Assembly: GCA_007376265.1 (NCBI GenBank)
Contig: VMFW01000013.1
Span: forward strand, 1-36,748
Length of the DNA stretch: 36,748 nt
Source: Parcubacteria group bacterium Gr01-1014_20
GTDB taxonomy: Bacteria > Patescibacteriota > Minisyncoccia > UBA6257 > 2-01-FULL-56-20
Direction of reading: 5' to 3'
Below are positions 3,408-10,267 of this stretch, piece by piece (within the stretch, counting starts at the first letter, position 1; every line of letters begins with the position of its first letter). The position numbers and the translations under genes were made by a program. The notes beneath the pieces were generated by a model, which saw only the letters and a list, made by a program, of their open reading frames with translations, did not search any database and was not told where the DNA came from.

Positions 3408-4304
3408 ATGAATTTTCTTAAAGAAAACGCGACTTGGATCGGATCAGTGCTCTACGCTCTCGGGTTTTTAATTCTTATCATTCCAAACTCCGTAAGAATA
3501 TATAAATACAAAATAAAGGGAGCTGATTTCAGCAAGACCTCCAAGAAGGTTAAAATTTCTATAGCTATTGTTGCGCTCCTTTTCATTGCTCAAGCAATTC
3601 TTCAAACCTCAGCCTCTACCTTCTCAAATCCTTTTGCTTTATTTATGTGGTTGCTGCCCATAGCTTTTTTTATACTTTTTGCAGTAGATATGCGCTTTCC
3701 CTATCAAACAAAAAACGACAAAGCAATTCAAAAGTTAAGAAGGTTTAGATATCTTGGTGGTGGCTTAGCGGTTGCTGGAGCAGCATTTATTGCATTTGGA
3801 CTAACTTCTGGGGGATCAACACCTGTAAACAACTCGAACAACAACCAAGCAAGTTCGTCTCAAATTGCTAGCTGGAAAACGTATCGAAGTGACCAGCATG
3901 GATTTGAATTTAAATATCCGTCCAGCTGGACCGTGTATCCGTACGCCCTCGATGGTGTTATAGATTTCATATCTGCTAACCAATCAGACGGAAGTGAGGC
4001 CGGTATCGCGGTAAAAAGCATAGGTAAAATGTCTCTTGATGACGCGAAATTATTTGTCGAAAAAAAACGGAAAGAGTTGCAAAGAACTCAATATGGACCT
4101 CCAGAATTCGTTACGATCCAAGAGGCCCCCGCAGTAAGGTATTCATACACTCCGTTCGAAATTATACCTCCGGGTTTAATATATTATTTCTACGAGAAAG
4201 GCATAGAGTTTGAAATTTCTGATCTTTTTGAAGACGGTCAGATAATGAGTGCCAGTACGGGCACAACGCAGCAAATCATACTCTCGTCAATAAAATTCTT
4301 TTAG
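3408..4304 (+). CDS. Membrane protein with C-terminal PsbP-like extracytoplasmic domain
   Basis: Several TM segments, then WKTYRSDQHGFEFKYPSSWTVY, typical of PsbP-like domains. Confidence 0.65.
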   Translation: MNFLKENATWIGSVLYALGFLILIIPNSVRIYKYKIKGADFSKTSKKVKISIAIVALLFIAQAILQTSASTFSNPFALFMWLLPIAFFILFAVDMRFPYQTKNDKAIQKLRRFRYLGGGLAVAGAAFIAFGLTSGGSTPVNNSNNNQASSSQIASWKTYRSDQHGFEFKYPSSWTVYPYALDGVIDFISANQSDGSEAGIAVKSIGKMSLDDAKLFVEKKRKELQRTQYGPPEFVTIQEAPAVRYSYTPFEIIPPGLIYYFYEKGIEFEISDLFEDGQIMSASTGTTQQIILSSIKFF

Positions 4305-4444: not shown

Positions 4445-4519
4445 GGACTCGTAGCTCAGTGGTAGAGCGTCCCGTTCACATCGGGAAGGCCACAGGTTCG
4501 ATCCCTGTCGAGTCCACCA
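4445..4519 (+). tRNA. tRNA-Val(CAC), CCA encoded
   Basis: Acceptor GGACTCG/CGAGTCC, D-stem GCTC/GAGC, anticodon arm TCCCG-TTCACAT-CGGGA, T-arm ACAGG-TTCGATC-CCTGT, ends ACCA. Confidence 0.95.
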
Positions 4520-4550: not shown

Positions 4551-7511
4551 ATGGAAAAACTAAATTTTGACAGAAACTTTGACGAAGCCAATACGAAGCT
4601 TGAATCTTCGAAATTAGAACTCAAAAAACTTTTAGAAGAAGAAATCCTAGATGAAACTAGCCGAATTCGCCTCACTAGGGTTCTTCAGCTTGTCGAGCGT
4701 TATCGTCCAGAAAGAAATTCCAACTCCAACAAGGAAGAACAAGGGCAAAGTCTATGGTTAAAATACATCGAAACATTCCTAAGGTCACTTCCGGCTCTAA
4801 CCAGTCACCTTACTAGAAGAAAAGAAAAACCAAAACAAGAAGACCCGGAAAAACTGCCTGCTAAATCTTTTTTGACAGCCGAAAAAACCATTCAAAACCT
4901 AAGAGAGCTTCGTCACTTTGATTTTGAAATTTATAAAGAGCAAGGTTTTTCTGATGATGAAATAATCGATCAGGAGCGGTCCGGGGAAGTTATTAAAAAA
5001 GAAACCCTCGACTCCTCGCTTTCGTTAAGTTATGAACAAAAAAATTGGGGTGTTGAAAGAATTTGCTTGGACGGCGTTCAAAACCACCTCCCGAGTGATT
5101 CAAAGGGGGAGCGGGTTTGGGTAAAGTGCCTAATAGATGGTGAGTGGTTAGATATCGATCGAGCTAGAGCCAACCAAGAAAAAATTGAAGCCGTGCGGTT
5201 TGCCGACGATGGAGTCGGGTTTGATGTTAAAAATCTCGTCCTTCTCCACTCAACCAAAGCCGGAGAGCAAGGGTCCGTCGGTCAATTCGGTGAAGGCATA
5301 AAAATGATTTCTGCAGCAGCGCTCCGCGAGGGTATTGATGTCGAATTCGAATCTCAGGATTGGCGGGCTCGGCCCGTTGCCAAGCCCGTAACCTTCAAAA
5401 ACACCCGAGACAAAAAGGAGGAAGAAATAAAGCAACTTACTTTTGCCGCCGAGTACCTTAATGGCGAGCCAATGATTGGGTCACGAACCACCTTCTGGAA
5501 ACCCAACCAGCAATTTATTGACGAGGTTCTCAAGGTTGAGGAGAAAGTTTTAGCGCTGGATAAAAAATACCGGCCGGTTTTTGTTGGCGAAACCGGCCAA
5601 ATCGCAAAGCTGGAACCTGGTAAAATGTACATCAAGGGTATTTTGGTTGGCGAGCGCGACACCCTCCTCTCTTATAACTTTAACGACATCCAAACCAACC
5701 GCGATCGAAACACCACAATGATTCATGAAGGAACTCTCGATCGCAAAATAAAAGGCATTTTGAGCGAAATAAGCGACGTAAAGTTGGTTAAGACCCTTAT
5801 CGCTCGAGCTGTCGCTAATCCAGGACAAGAAGGCGAAGATTATCACTATTCAATTACGCCCAAAACCCCAACAGTTTGGGTCACAGCCTTTTACGAACTT
5901 TTTGGTGAAGACGCCGTTATCGATACTGGTTTTGAACCACCGAAAAACCTCAAAGTGCCGGAAATGAAAAAAATAAAACTTCCCCGAGGATTACAACACA
6001 CCCTCATCAAAGCCGGCGTCAAAACCGAGCAGCAAGCCATCCCCGACTTCTACGAAGAAACTATCAAAACCTCCTTAACGTTGGACTATGGCAAAGATGT
6101 GTGGGGTGAGGAAAGAATTCTCCTCGACACAATCCAAAACCATCTCCCGCATGATTCCGGTGGTTGCAGTATTTGGCTAAGATTCAAAACTAAAGACGGG
6201 AAGTGGAGAGATTATAACGAAATCTCACATTTTAAAAATGAAGACATCGAAGCGTTAAAAGTATCCGACGATGGTCGCGGGTATGAAGTTAGCGCTCTCG
6301 AACTACTTCACTCGACAAAAGAGGGAACCGAGGCCGCGGGTCGTTTTGGCGAAGGATTAAAAATGGTCTCGGCGGCGGCTTTAAGAAGCAATATCGGCAT
6401 CACTCTTCGCTCAAGGGATTGGGTTGCTAGCCCCGTTGCTATTCCCAGAGAAGTTAATGGCCTGGAAGTAAATCAACTCGGTTTCCAGGTTGTCAATTCA
6501 ATAAAAGATAAGAAACCAAAACCCGATGATCCATATGATGCTCATTCCAGAAGCTCCACCACCTTCGAGAAACCAAGCATCGGGTTGATAGATGAGTTCC
6601 GCACTGTTGATAAGAAAGTTCTCGCCCTGAACAGTGATCCCCTAGTCGATAAAACTGAAACAGGAGATATCGTCTCTCTCGGCTCCGGTCTTTTATACGC
6701 GAGAGAAATCATCATTCCAGGTGACCATCAACTTATGTTCAGCTATCATTTCCCAAAAATCGAAATAAAAAATCGCGACCGAAACACTCTTTCTCCTGAA
6801 GAGCTCAAGGGTGCAGTCGGCAGTGTTCTTGAAAGAACTGGAAGCCCGGAAGTCATAAGAACCTTTTTGTTAAACGCGCGTATTGATGCCCAGGGCGAAA
6901 ACAGAAATGGCAAAACCAAGCTCGAGTTCGATGTCGATTTTCTGCCCAAAGATTCTGGGATTTGGAAAAAAGTGTTTGAAGAAACTTTTGGAAGCGATGT
7001 TTCTGTTCGTGATGTGCGCGGTGACGATTTCAATGCAATGCACCAAAACCTTCACGTCGGCTTAGAGCTTATTTCAATGCCTTCTTCGGTCGCGAGAATG
7101 CTCGAATATGTCGGTCTGCCGACTTACAAACAAAGATTGTATGAGATGACCGATGTTATCCACATCCCGTACGAGGAGTTAACAGGTCAAGAAAAAGAGA
7201 TTCTCGAACTACTTCCAATGATAGACGAGTTCCTTCCCGGCAATCGCTCTTCCGAAATTGTAGTTTATGAACCTAAATATTCAGGCCAACACGTAGCTGC
7301 CGGTTTTGCCGATGGTTCCAAAATTCACCTAAGTCGCAGCACCCTAAGTTTCTTTGAGCGTGCCGCTGACGTCTATGTTCACGAAAAAACTCACCACAAC
7401 ACCTCTCTTGCCCCCGACGCTAGCGCCGGTTTTAGAAACTACCTAACTTTAGCCGCCTCAAGTATGGCCCTCTCGATGTTGGATAAGCTGAAATCCGCTC
7501 GGGCGAATTAA
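4551..7511 (+). CDS. Tandem GHKL-ATPase protein with C-terminal HExxH metalloprotease-like motif, 986 aa
   Basis: Two copies of LD..QNHLP.D, DDG.G[FY], G[QR]FGEG[IL]KM.SAAALR, NRDRNT; C-terminal VYVHEKTHHNTSLAPDASAGFRNYL. Confidence 0.85.
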   Translation: MEKLNFDRNFDEANTKLESSKLELKKLLEEEILDETSRIRLTRVLQLVERYRPERNSNSNKEEQGQSLWLKYIETFLRSLPALTSHLTRRKEKPKQEDPEKLPAKSFLTAEKTIQNLRELRHFDFEIYKEQGFSDDEIIDQERSGEVIKKETLDSSLSLSYEQKNWGVERICLDGVQNHLPSDSKGERVWVKCLIDGEWLDIDRARANQEKIEAVRFADDGVGFDVKNLVLLHSTKAGEQGSVGQFGEGIKMISAAALREGIDVEFESQDWRARPVAKPVTFKNTRDKKEEEIKQLTFAAEYLNGEPMIGSRTTFWKPNQQFIDEVLKVEEKVLALDKKYRPVFVGETGQIAKLEPGKMYIKGILVGERDTLLSYNFNDIQTNRDRNTTMIHEGTLDRKIKGILSEISDVKLVKTLIARAVANPGQEGEDYHYSITPKTPTVWVTAFYELFGEDAVIDTGFEPPKNLKVPEMKKIKLPRGLQHTLIKAGVKTEQQAIPDFYEETIKTSLTLDYGKDVWGEERILLDTIQNHLPHDSGGCSIWLRFKTKDGKWRDYNEISHFKNEDIEALKVSDDGRGYEVSALELLHSTKEGTEAAGRFGEGLKMVSAAALRSNIGITLRSRDWVASPVAIPREVNGLEVNQLGFQVVNSIKDKKPKPDDPYDAHSRSSTTFEKPSIGLIDEFRTVDKKVLALNSDPLVDKTETGDIVSLGSGLLYAREIIIPGDHQLMFSYHFPKIEIKNRDRNTLSPEELKGAVGSVLERTGSPEVIRTFLLNARIDAQGENRNGKTKLEFDVDFLPKDSGIWKKVFEETFGSDVSVRDVRGDDFNAMHQNLHVGLELISMPSSVARMLEYVGLPTYKQRLYEMTDVIHIPYEELTGQEKEILELLPMIDEFLPGNRSSEIVVYEPKYSGQHVAAGFADGSKIHLSRSTLSFFERAADVYVHEKTHHNTSLAPDASAGFRNYLTLAASSMALSMLDKLKSARAN

Positions 7512-7528
7512 ATGGTATAATTAAAAGT

Positions 7529-8041
7529 GTGAAAAAGAACATCCCGCTTATTTTTGCCATCTCCATTCCGATCCTTATGGTCATTGGCATTGCTCTCAGT
7601 ATTTACCTACCCGCGCTCTTCATAAAACCCGAATATGACTTTCTTTACTCAATCGGCGGCGACTATAGCTATCGAAATGAATACGTGGTCGAAAACGGCC
7701 AATTGATCAAAAAACCGATCACACTCCCCAACACCATAAAAACTGGCCAGGAGCCGGAACTATACGTCCATGATGTTTCCGAAAACGCTAGCACTAAAGT
7801 TTCGTTTGAAGAAGCGCAGAACTTGAATCTAGATTCGAACCCCCAGTCACCTGACGGCTTTGAAATCACTTACGGCTCAACTGGCGACGGCATTTTCCCA
7901 ATTTTTTTCTGGTCAGAGCGAGACTACGGCAGTCGTTACATAAAAGGTCACGGTGTTAGCAAGAAATTAAACCTACAATTAACAAGCTCATTCCAAAGCT
8001 ACTATAACGATCTGCGTTTTTTGGGATGGGTGAAAAAATAA
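7529..8041 (+). CDS. Membrane-anchored protein, 170 aa (GTG start)
   Basis: N-terminal TM segment; TATAAT 7 nt upstream; adjacent to the DUF2157-like gene. Confidence 0.65.
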   Translation: MKKNIPLIFAISIPILMVIGIALSIYLPALFIKPEYDFLYSIGGDYSYRNEYVVENGQLIKKPITLPNTIKTGQEPELYVHDVSENASTKVSFEEAQNLNLDSNPQSPDGFEITYGSTGDGIFPIFFWSERDYGSRYIKGHGVSKKLNLQLTSSFQSYYNDLRFLGWVKK

Positions 8042-8042
8042 C

Positions 8043-9026
8043 ATGGCAACCAAAGAAGAAGTTTTACAATACGTAAAAACTCTCGCGGAGCAAAACGTCG
8101 TTACTAAAGACGAACTAATAAGTGCCTATAATTCTGGTTCAAACGTTAAGGGAGATCAGGTGATCACTAAGCGACTCGGCATTGCCGAAATCCTCTACTA
8201 CATCGGCGGAGCCATCGTCTTTATCGGCATCGCGATTTTTGTTTTCCAAAACTGGGAAGACTTGAACGGCTTTACCCGTATCCTGGCTACTCTCGGTTCA
8301 GGCATTGCCGCTTACATCATTGGCCTTATCTTCTATCGAGACGAAAGAACCGAAACCATCGGTTCCGCTTTCCATTTGATCTCAGCGTTAGTTACTCCCA
8401 TCGGCCTTTATGTTGTTTTTGACAACGCCGGCTTTGATGTGAGCGGTAGTGGTTGGCAAAGTCTTATTTCTGGTATCCTCTTTGCGGAATTTATGGCTTC
8501 CTATTTTGTATTTCGAAGAAGCATCTTTATTCTGTTTAGTATTATTTTTGGAACCTGGTTTTTCTATGTCTTCACTAACTACATGGTCGGTACCCACCCC
8601 TACTTTAGTATTTGGAAATATTACTGGTATCGTACACTCGTCGTTGGTAGTGCCTACATGTCTTTAGGTTACTTCTTCAGTAAAAATAATCGCGAGCAAC
8701 TCTCCGGCTTTCTGTATGGGTTTGGCACCTTAGGCTTCCTGGGCGCCGCCTTCGCGCTCGGCGGTTGGAAACCCGAGCAAAACGCATTTTGGGAGTTAAT
8801 TTTCCCCCTCCTTACTTTTGGAGCCCTCTTCTTGAGCGTTCATCTCAAAAACACCGCTTTTCTAACTTACGGCACTCTTTATCTGATGGCCTACATCCTA
8901 AAACTTACCAGTGAATATTTTAGTGACAGTTTGGGTTGGCCCCTTACGCTCGTCATCGCCGGTCTGTTTCTGATCGCCGCCGGCTATCTGTACGTCTTTC
9001 TAAGAAAGAAATATATTTCCACATAG
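8043..9026 (+). CDS. DUF2157-like multi-pass membrane protein
   Basis: N-terminal helical region followed by repeated TM segments with the DUF2157-like pattern. Confidence 0.65.
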   Translation: MATKEEVLQYVKTLAEQNVVTKDELISAYNSGSNVKGDQVITKRLGIAEILYYIGGAIVFIGIAIFVFQNWEDLNGFTRILATLGSGIAAYIIGLIFYRDERTETIGSAFHLISALVTPIGLYVVFDNAGFDVSGSGWQSLISGILFAEFMASYFVFRRSIFILFSIIFGTWFFYVFTNYMVGTHPYFSIWKYYWYRTLVVGSAYMSLGYFFSKNNREQLSGFLYGFGTLGFLGAAFALGGWKPEQNAFWELIFPLLTFGALFLSVHLKNTAFLTYGTLYLMAYILKLTSEYFSDSLGWPLTLVIAGLFLIAAGYLYVFLRKKYIST

Positions 9027-9055
9027 TACCCACTCCCTAAACCTATAGTTTTAGT

Positions 9056-9084
9056 TTGACAAAACTCGGTCAAACCCATACAAT
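9056..9084 (+). promoter_or_regulatory. Sigma70-like promoter
   Basis: TTGACA-N17-TACAAT upstream of the receiver gene. Confidence 0.8.
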
Positions 9085-9139
9085 AAACCCCGGTTCTTTT
9101 AGTTGGGATCGGCGCAAGTAACCCAAAAGGAGGCAGGCC

Positions 9140-9523
9140 ATGAAAGTTCTGTACGTGGAAGACACCCAGTTGCTTCGGGAGGCAGTTTCAGAGCACCTGA
9201 AGTTAGCCGATCATGAAGTTGTCACGGCTGAAAACGCCAAAACTGGACTCCAGCAATTTTACATGGAGCGGCCAGAGCTTGGACTCGTGATCACTGATGT
9301 TGATCTTGGTTCTGGCATGAGCGGCATTGAGTTCGCCGATCAAATCGTTGCGAACGGTTGGGACATGAACAAAATCATCATCGTCTCCGGCGATCCCGAG
9401 AATATCGCCAAAGCCTCGTCAAAAGGCTACCAAGCTCTTTCAAAAGGGGACACCAAGTTCACTTCTTATCTCTTGAAAGCTGTCGAGGTTATTTCTCGGC
9501 TTTCGCCGTCCGCCGTGAGCTAA
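9140..9523 (+). CDS. Stand-alone response-regulator receiver domain
   Basis: MKVLYVEDTQLLREAVSEHL..LVITDVDLGSGMSGIEF..IIIVSG; AAAAGGAGG SD. Confidence 0.85.
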   Translation: MKVLYVEDTQLLREAVSEHLKLADHEVVTAENAKTGLQQFYMERPELGLVITDVDLGSGMSGIEFADQIVANGWDMNKIIIVSGDPENIAKASSKGYQALSKGDTKFTSYLLKAVEVISRLSPSAVS

Positions 9524-9531
9524 ATCTTATC

Positions 9532-9563
9532 AGGCCGCCTTATCCAATGGGCGGCCTTTTTTC
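9532..9563 (+). terminator. Intrinsic terminator
   Basis: AGGCCGCC..GGCGGCCTTTTTT. Confidence 0.9.
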
Positions 9564-9670
9564 ACCAAAATGGCTACCGAAAAACTTGCTTAATTTCCAG
9601 GTTTTAGCTATCCTCTCGACAGTAAATTGATGCTTCAAAAACCCAGAGATAGAAAAACTAGGAGGTTCCA

Positions 9671-10267
9671 CTGAAACCCAGAATCCTGATTTCGGTCACC
9701 GACAAAACCGGAATTGAGAAATTTGCCAAGCTCGTCACGCAGGGCTGGAAAATTATTTCGACTGGCAAAACCGCTAAAGCCTTAGAAGCCGCCAATATTC
9801 CGTGTGTTCCTATTGAGAGCGAGACCCAATTTCCAGAAATGCTCGATGGTCGACTGAAGACCCTGCACCCAAGGGTTTTCGGCGGCATTCTCGCCAACCG
9901 AACCAAACTCGACCACATGCAAGCCATTGCCGAATACAACATTGCCCCAATCGATTTGGTGGTTGTAAATCTCTACGATTTTCTTGGCAATCCCGGCATC
10001 GAAACCATCGACATCGGCGGCCCCTCCCTTATTCGTGCCGCCGCCAAAAACTGTGCCTCCGTGACCGTCCTCACCGATCCCAAAGACTACGACGAAGTCA
10101 TTGCTCATCTTTTTGCGACCGATGAAGTCCCCGAAGAAAAACGAGTGGCCCTTGCACTCAAGGCCTTCGAATACACCGCCCTCTACGATGCGGCCATCTC
10201 GAAGTGGTTGCGAGATAAAATCCGCTCCGGCGAGTCAATTTTCCCACTGAACGACGCGAGCCACTAA
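9671..10267 (+). CDS. purH: IMP cyclohydrolase domain (PurH N-terminal/MGS-type) without AICAR formyltransferase domain; probable CTG start
   Basis: Reading upstream of the listed ORF: (CTG)KPRILISVTDKTGIEKFAKLV..IISTGKTAKAL..GRLKTLHPRVFGGILANR..IDIGGPSLIRAAAKN; GGAGGT SD 4-5 nt upstream; in-frame TAG at 9659. Confidence 0.85.
   Translation: MKPRILISVTDKTGIEKFAKLVTQGWKIISTGKTAKALEAANIPCVPIESETQFPEMLDGRLKTLHPRVFGGILANRTKLDHMQAIAEYNIAPIDLVVVNLYDFLGNPGIETIDIGGPSLIRAAAKNCASVTVLTDPKDYDEVIAHLFATDEVPEEKRVALALKAFEYTALYDAAISKWLRDKIRSGESIFPLNDASH

Follow-up and report, generated by a model that had tools for sequence, protein, structure and literature searches.

Can a single bacterial protein combine two GHKL ATPase modules with a zinc metalloprotease, and if so, is such an arrangement peculiar to one genome and what might it do? 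The question is raised by a gene of Parcubacteria group bacterium Gr01-1014_20, whose genome (0.91 Mb, 99% complete) includes the 36,748-nucleotide stretch of DNA analyzed here and referred to below as the window. At positions 4551-7511 of the forward strand, the window contains an open reading frame of 986 codons plus a stop codon, with no internal stop, for which an initial annotation had proposed duplicated GHKL modules and a C-terminal HExxH metalloprotease-like motif.

Domain organization of the 986-residue protein

The gene and its parts are as follows:

4551-7511, forward strand: whole gene, encoding 986 aa with an N-terminal extension followed by two GHKL modules and a zincin
4551-4991, forward strand: N-terminal extension, residues 1-147, charged
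4992-6002, forward strand: module 1, GHKL plus following domain, residues ~148-484 (best stretch of the phrog_6077 match, 199-457)
5067-5093, forward strand: module 1 N-box LDGVQNHLP, with D174 at the position of the general-base Glu, and N178
5205-5219, forward strand: module 1 G1 box DDGVG, with D219
5280-5303, forward strand: module 1 G2/lid GQFGEGIK
5697-5708, forward strand: module 1 NRDR motif, candidate basic finger of the transducer segment
6003-7112, forward strand: module 2, GHKL plus following domain, residues ~485-854
6123-6149, forward strand: module 2 N-box LDTIQNHLP, with D526 and N530
6267-6281, forward strand: module 2 G1 box DDGRG, with D573
6339-6362, forward strand: module 2 G2/lid GRFGEGLK
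6771-6782, forward strand: module 2 NRDR motif
7113-7508, forward strand: C-terminal minigluzincin-like zincin, residues 855-986 (model pLDDT 90.4; Foldseek match abylysin)
7380-7394, forward strand: HEKTH, predicted zinc-binding and catalytic motif, residues 944-948
7416-7418, forward strand: Asp956, nearly invariant, candidate third zinc ligand

HEKTH is the sole HExxH motif of the protein. The N-terminal extension has no family match, and its comparison with the extension of a Clostridia homolog (L056) revealed no convincing similarity (E 0.026 over 30 aa).

Duplicated GHKL modules

An alignment of residues 150-457 with residues 502-820 gives a local BLOSUM62 score of 453, whereas 200 shuffled comparisons reached a mean of 41 and a maximum of 63, which bears out the proposed duplication; the repeat unit comprises the ATPase core together with the domain after it. 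N-box, G1 (DxGxG) and G2 glycine motifs all lie within each module, placing both in the GHKL superfamily, and ten key positions of the Bergerat fold (D-N-P-D-G-G-G-K-D-R, distributed over the N-box, G1, G2/lid and NRDR motifs) are identical between them. The initial annotation was therefore right that the nucleotide-binding motifs are kept in both copies, with the qualification that each N-box has Asp for the usual catalytic Glu, as well as Pro for the usual Asp. The Glu-to-Asp replacement is conservative, so that membership of the superfamily is not in doubt and only the rate of hydrolysis is. Two further motifs described as shared have to be amended: RDW reads QDW in module 1, and NRDRNT, which is present, is preceded by [TK] and not by [NK].

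Assignment to a described GHKL family is less straightforward. HATPase_c was the sole Pfam match (E 4e-4, below the Pfam cut-off) and a sacsin ATPase model the sub-threshold match in NCBIfam, while profile matches of the GHKL part pointed to Hsp83 (E 1e-4) and MORC3/4 (E 4e-4 to 1e-3). Hsp83 and MORC are GHKL proteins that dimerize on ATP. Membership of Hsp90, MutL or MORC proper was rejected, given that no such family in Pfam or NCBIfam exceeded its cut-off and the weak matches were confined to the ATPase part. A histidine kinase was likewise rejected, with no Pfam or NCBIfam match to a kinase (DHp domain, phospho-acceptor His), as was a MutL endonuclease, with no matches in the family libraries searched; both agree with what the initial annotation had stated.

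Across the homologs described below, the NRDR Arg is present in 61/61 aligned modules, and the G2 Gly and Lys in essentially all 61-62, the Lys without exception wherever it could be aligned. Of 60 N-boxes, 57 have the Asn and the other three Glu. The general-base position separates phage from cellular proteins: Glu occupies it in all 41 phage and plasmid modules and Asp in all 19 cellular modules, 16 of which also have Pro for the later N-box Asp. Since all cellular members carry the Glu-to-Asp replacement, slow hydrolysis is suggested, in keeping with a timed switch and not a fast motor. The near-universal difference between phage and cellular modules thus offers a ready question on switch versus motor behavior.

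The C-terminal zincin domain

A direct sequence search of the PDB with the single 986-residue protein returned no match. An AlphaFold model of residues 485-986, based on an alignment of 28 sequences, has a pLDDT of 87.6 and a pTM of 0.73. The C-terminal domain taken alone (pLDDT 90.4) consists of a helix, three strands, the HExxH helix and a C-terminal helix, and thereby contains the three-stranded sheet, HExxH helix and subsequent C-terminal helix of the zincin fold, the core of which has been described (PMC5512222). The HExxH motif noted at the C-terminus accordingly lies in a confidently modeled zincin, and it is conserved in homologs. The best PDB fold match of this domain in Foldseek is abylysin (4jiu; probability 1.00, TM 0.51/0.62, E 0.018), followed by PprI, HtpX, BepA and Wss1, and weak profile matches were obtained to AIP56, Wss1 and Spartan (E 0.01-0.05). 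For the ATPase part, Grp94 and MutL were weak PDB fold matches, with TM of 0.35 or less for the GHKL domain; PDB fold matches were weak overall, none having an E-value below 0.001. Among viral models, the fold matches comprised several uncharacterized phage proteins, a Sulfolobales filamentous virus protein and T4-type RIIA. The Sulfolobales protein is A0A3Q8Q6V3 of Sulfolobales Beppu filamentous phage 1, annotated as a putative viral structural protein; its match to the GHKL-zincin model has an E-value of 1.6e-12 and would extend the GHKL-zincin family to archaeal filamentous viruses.

Among the modules that reach the zincin region, the HExxH Glu is present in 41/42 and the downstream Asp in 40/42. 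All 31 phage or plasmid members have the HExxH motif and 30 of them the Asp, against 9-10 and 10, respectively, of the 11 cellular members. Conservation of both HExxH and Asp956 extends to distant relatives, so the HEKTH motif is not a chance occurrence. The third zinc ligand is more difficult to assign. No Glu is conserved on the C-terminal helix, where a minigluzincin would have its third-ligand Glu, and the Glu of the REFE motif in Moorella-type members was rejected as a candidate, its position being variable in cellular members and the preceding Asp conserved. A His lies five residues past the Asp in 20 of 31 phage members and most cellular members have Phe near there, so the identity of this ligand is uncertain.

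A widespread, mostly phage-borne family

The protein matches phrog_6077 of PHROGs v4, a family of unknown function, in two stretches (E 6.4e-25). Direct protein searches of genome and viral contigs with the window protein or a Moorella phage protein as query confirmed nothing, so alignments were needed to find relatives. A tblastn search of phages and plasmids identified proteins of the Moorella phage, a Streptomyces plasmid and multi-module plasmid proteins, all ending in an HExxH domain, and alignments built from them led to 13 and 23 loci in viral contigs and 17 in genomes. With an early alignment (A1), other genomes of the phylum gave weak matches to GHKL proteins, which vanished with a family-specific alignment (A4); one of them (L023) is an unrelated GHKL protein.

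Nearly all relatives have the same order of GHKL, following domain and HExxH. Dozens of phages carry such a protein, as do plasmids of Firmicutes, DPANN archaea, a Clostridia chromosome and Omnitrophota. The commonest form is a single module of about 420-600 aa, found in phages, Woesearchaeota and other DPANN archaea, and Desulfofundulus. Two modules are present in the window protein and in proteins of Clostridia (L056, 1108 aa), a Micrarchaeon (L057, 979 aa), Levybacteriota (L069, 1941 aa) and Omnitrophota (L065), and three in an Alkaliphilus plasmid protein (L004); module number thus ranges from one to three, with the zincin single and C-terminal throughout. The Clostridia protein is chromosomal, has the same tandem order and is 34.9% identical over residues 152-979 (E 1e-152). 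The architecture recognized in the initial annotation is real, and GHKL and zincin are fused across phages, plasmids, archaea and bacteria, although the protein is not a lone oddity but the tandem form of a widespread, mostly single-module, phage-borne family, phrog_6077. In the libraries and papers searched, no characterized protein with a GHKL-GHKL-HExxH architecture was found, as had been stated, nor any paper describing GHKL plus HExxH. The family is wide, has no entry in Pfam and is without a name or assigned function, both of its domains being of known kinds.

Several members depart from this pattern. In three phage contigs, a second cluster of very divergent proteins lies close to a family member (L020:3350-4831, L085:10297-11814, L095:12970-14535); the L020 copy matches the family profile (E 3e-10) and has an HExxH of its own (HEFAH). 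In Omnitrophota (L065; JAKPTF010000035.1, G529:C26), the tandem GHKL modules and a degenerate zincin lie inside an open frame of 48,300 codons, which, from our own reading of its translation, presumably also encodes parts resembling glycogen-branching enzyme, other carbohydrate enzymes and HAD hydrolases. Archaeal copies of Nanobdellota type (L058:8643-8645, L113, L116, L118, L133) have single in-frame stops, nearly all TAG. The stop in L058 stands at the position of a Gln in a relative, and TAG also terminates other ORFs there; such copies may be pseudogenes, sequencing errors or cases of TAG recoding.

About a hundred named phages carry a GHKL member of the family, with a zincin in an Exiguobacterium phage and without one in E. 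coli phage 4MG. With members in so many phages, among them E. coli and Pseudomonas phages that carry the ATPase part, the function of the family is testable now. One phage branch (L005, L007, L008, L017) has GHKL and no zincin, which implies that the ATPase can act without the protease. HExxH has also been lost in two cellular copies whose frame is still open, namely that of Omnitrophota (EEIAH) and the second copy at L063, where two archaeal copies are adjacent and overlap (6208-7995 and 7979-9778) and the one without HExxH keeps a full frame. Both the branch and the losses would suit a GHKL chaperone or switch whose zincin binds metal or substrate without cleavage, or processes only its own chain; zincin domains in multidomain phage proteins are indeed thought to process their own polypeptide (PMC5512222). 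We nevertheless regard a zincin that is non-cleaving or only self-processing as quite improbable, for HExxH and the Asp persist in nearly all other members despite great divergence, and the catalytic Glu would be unneeded for metal binding alone.

Gene history and genomic context

In a tree of 21 modules, module 2 of the window protein groups with module 2 of the Clostridia protein (94/99) and module 1 with module 1 (90/50, weak). A topology joining the two modules of the window protein was rejected (p-AU 0.008), and with it a recent duplication inside this protein; the tandem thus predates the split of the window and Clostridia proteins. Phage members without a zincin form one group beside members with a zincin, and cellular members form their own group.

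Occurrence in cells is patchy: the gene was found in 1/380 sampled genomes of the phylum of the window and in 14/279 of an archaeal phylum. Two genomes of the same genus lack it, as does every other genome sampled from the wider groups of the window (samples of 151, 380 and 244 genomes); a more distant member (L069) lies in a Levybacteriota genome. The immediate surroundings of the gene are:

4445-4519, forward strand: tRNA-Val (cac), directly upstream
7529-9026, forward strand: two closely packed downstream genes, one for a 170-aa protein that has a hydrophobic stretch near its N-terminus, the other for a DUF2157 membrane protein

Relatives without the gene keep the order rplL then tRNA-Val, whereas the window has a PsbP-like gene between the two and the 986-codon gene after the tRNA, indicating a variable insertion site. 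We read the gene as a horizontally acquired insert at this site and an isolated acquisition. The PsbP-like membrane protein gene extends over 3408-4304, where a same-genus genome (G002) has about 100 bases. The gene and the two downstream genes are possibly co-transcribed, an arrangement not conserved with homologs. Further downstream, a short ORF at 9839-10267 matches the N-terminal part of IMP cyclohydrolase/AICAR transformylase (60/311 profile positions) and may be a purH fragment.

Among cellular members there is no shared neighborhood, clusters being phage-internal only, and the copies of the window, Clostridia and archaea are surrounded by housekeeping and not by defense genes; neighbors of the other cellular copies include genes that, from their sequences, we take to be metG, EF-1alpha or prfB. 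These surroundings bear on two readings of the function. A phage-derived conflict protein, acting in counter-defense or host takeover by cleaving or remodeling a host or rival protein and kept in some cells for defense or superinfection exclusion, would account for the predominance of phages among the relatives and for the patchy cellular occurrence. Some relatives are annotated as RIIA lysis inhibitor, the fold matches include a RIIA model from Aeromonas phage 44RR2.8t (E 1.8e-5, with a low TM-score of 0.21-0.28), and RIIA-like GHKL proteins have been discussed as counter-defense factors (PMC7824862). However, PADLOC models gave no match to the window protein, and with housekeeping neighbors and cellular members forming a group of their own with a distinct N-box, such a role appears unlikely.

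The second reading is that of a nucleoprotein clamp-protease, in which the GHKL part would close on DNA, as in MutL and MORC, and the minigluzincin would clear DNA-bound proteins in the manner of Wss1 and Spartan at DNA-protein crosslinks, both being minigluzincins that act on such substrates (PMC4559962). MORC is among the best GHKL profile matches and Wss1 and Spartan among the best zincin matches, albeit weak ones. Several phage copies lie in regions devoted to replication and nucleotide metabolism, next to genes for helicase, ligase, SSB, dUTPase, exonuclease or primase, but phage early regions contain replication genes anyway, and cellular copies have no repair-gene neighborhood. As no DNA-binding domain was recognized in the protein either, we consider action on nucleoprotein improbable.

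A putative ATP-switched zinc protease

With moderate confidence, we favor an intracellular zinc protease switched by ATP, in which the tandem GHKL modules would form an intrachain dimer. The initial annotation had suggested an ATP-gated protease or chaperone-protease controlled by dimerization of two intrachain GHKL modules, an interpretation that is partly supported. From the tandem modules, their conserved motifs, the predicted folds and the family, we infer ATP binding, dimerization, proteolysis and a coupling between them. Each module, with its Hsp90/MORC-like Bergerat fold and an NRDR segment supplying Arg, would bind ATP; two chains of the single-module form would pair through their GHKL modules, and in the tandem form the pair would consist of modules 1 and 2 within a single chain. 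ATP-driven opening and closing would then place a protein substrate at the minigluzincin-type domain of the C-terminus, unfold it or let it enter; in this domain, the histidines of HExxH (H944, H948) and Asp956 would hold zinc. By analogy with Hsp90, MutL and MORC, intrachain closure of the GHKL modules would govern access to the zinc site.

The near-invariant HExxH and Asp fit what is expected of a working active site, and a varying number of modules with a single zincin fits GHKL modules serving one protease; the three-module plasmid form is a poor fit to a simple pair. More tentatively, the family, spread by phages and present as a one-chain tandem in a few bacteria and archaea, could be an ATP-dependent protease of a new class, in which a GHKL dimer clamp and not an AAA+ ring controls a zinc protease. 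To our knowledge, the ATP-dependent proteases of cells all rely on AAA+ motors, and a family that ties a working GHKL switch to its zincin would solve the problem differently. The family may also help to explain the RIIA-like GHKL proteins, the role of which is not yet well understood (PMC7824862).

Comparison with known systems

Like the window protein, Hsp90, MORC and MutL have the Bergerat motifs and, following the ATPase domain, a basic residue that is conserved. The similarity is weak, and the window protein differs in that its modules stand in tandem within a single chain, Asp replaces the catalytic Glu and a zincin is fused to them; it lacks a CW zinc finger and the endonuclease part of MutL. 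T4-type RIIA, a GHKL protein of phages, is similar in having a separate part at its C-terminus; we know of no HExxH domain in T4 RIIA. On the protease side, the minigluzincin and WLM-SprT proteins (abylysin, Wss1, Spartan) have the same succession of helix, three strands, HExxH helix and C-terminal helix. In contrast to them, the window protein has a near-invariant Asp after HExxH instead of the gluzincin Glu and is fused to GHKL, and the E-values are weak. The AIP56/NleC-type zincins (Peptidase M85) share HExxHxxTGxxD, with the spacing of cellular and some phage members; however, the match is limited to the motif region, and AIP56 and NleC are secreted effectors without GHKL. The family phrog_6077 shares a homologous GHKL and following domain, and single-module phage members match it with E-values of 1e-36 to 1e-82. 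The window protein and its HExxH relatives match this profile of 366 positions up to about position 300, without the zincin; the best match among the scanned single-module proteins is one without a zincin (L017). A further difference is that the window protein has two modules.
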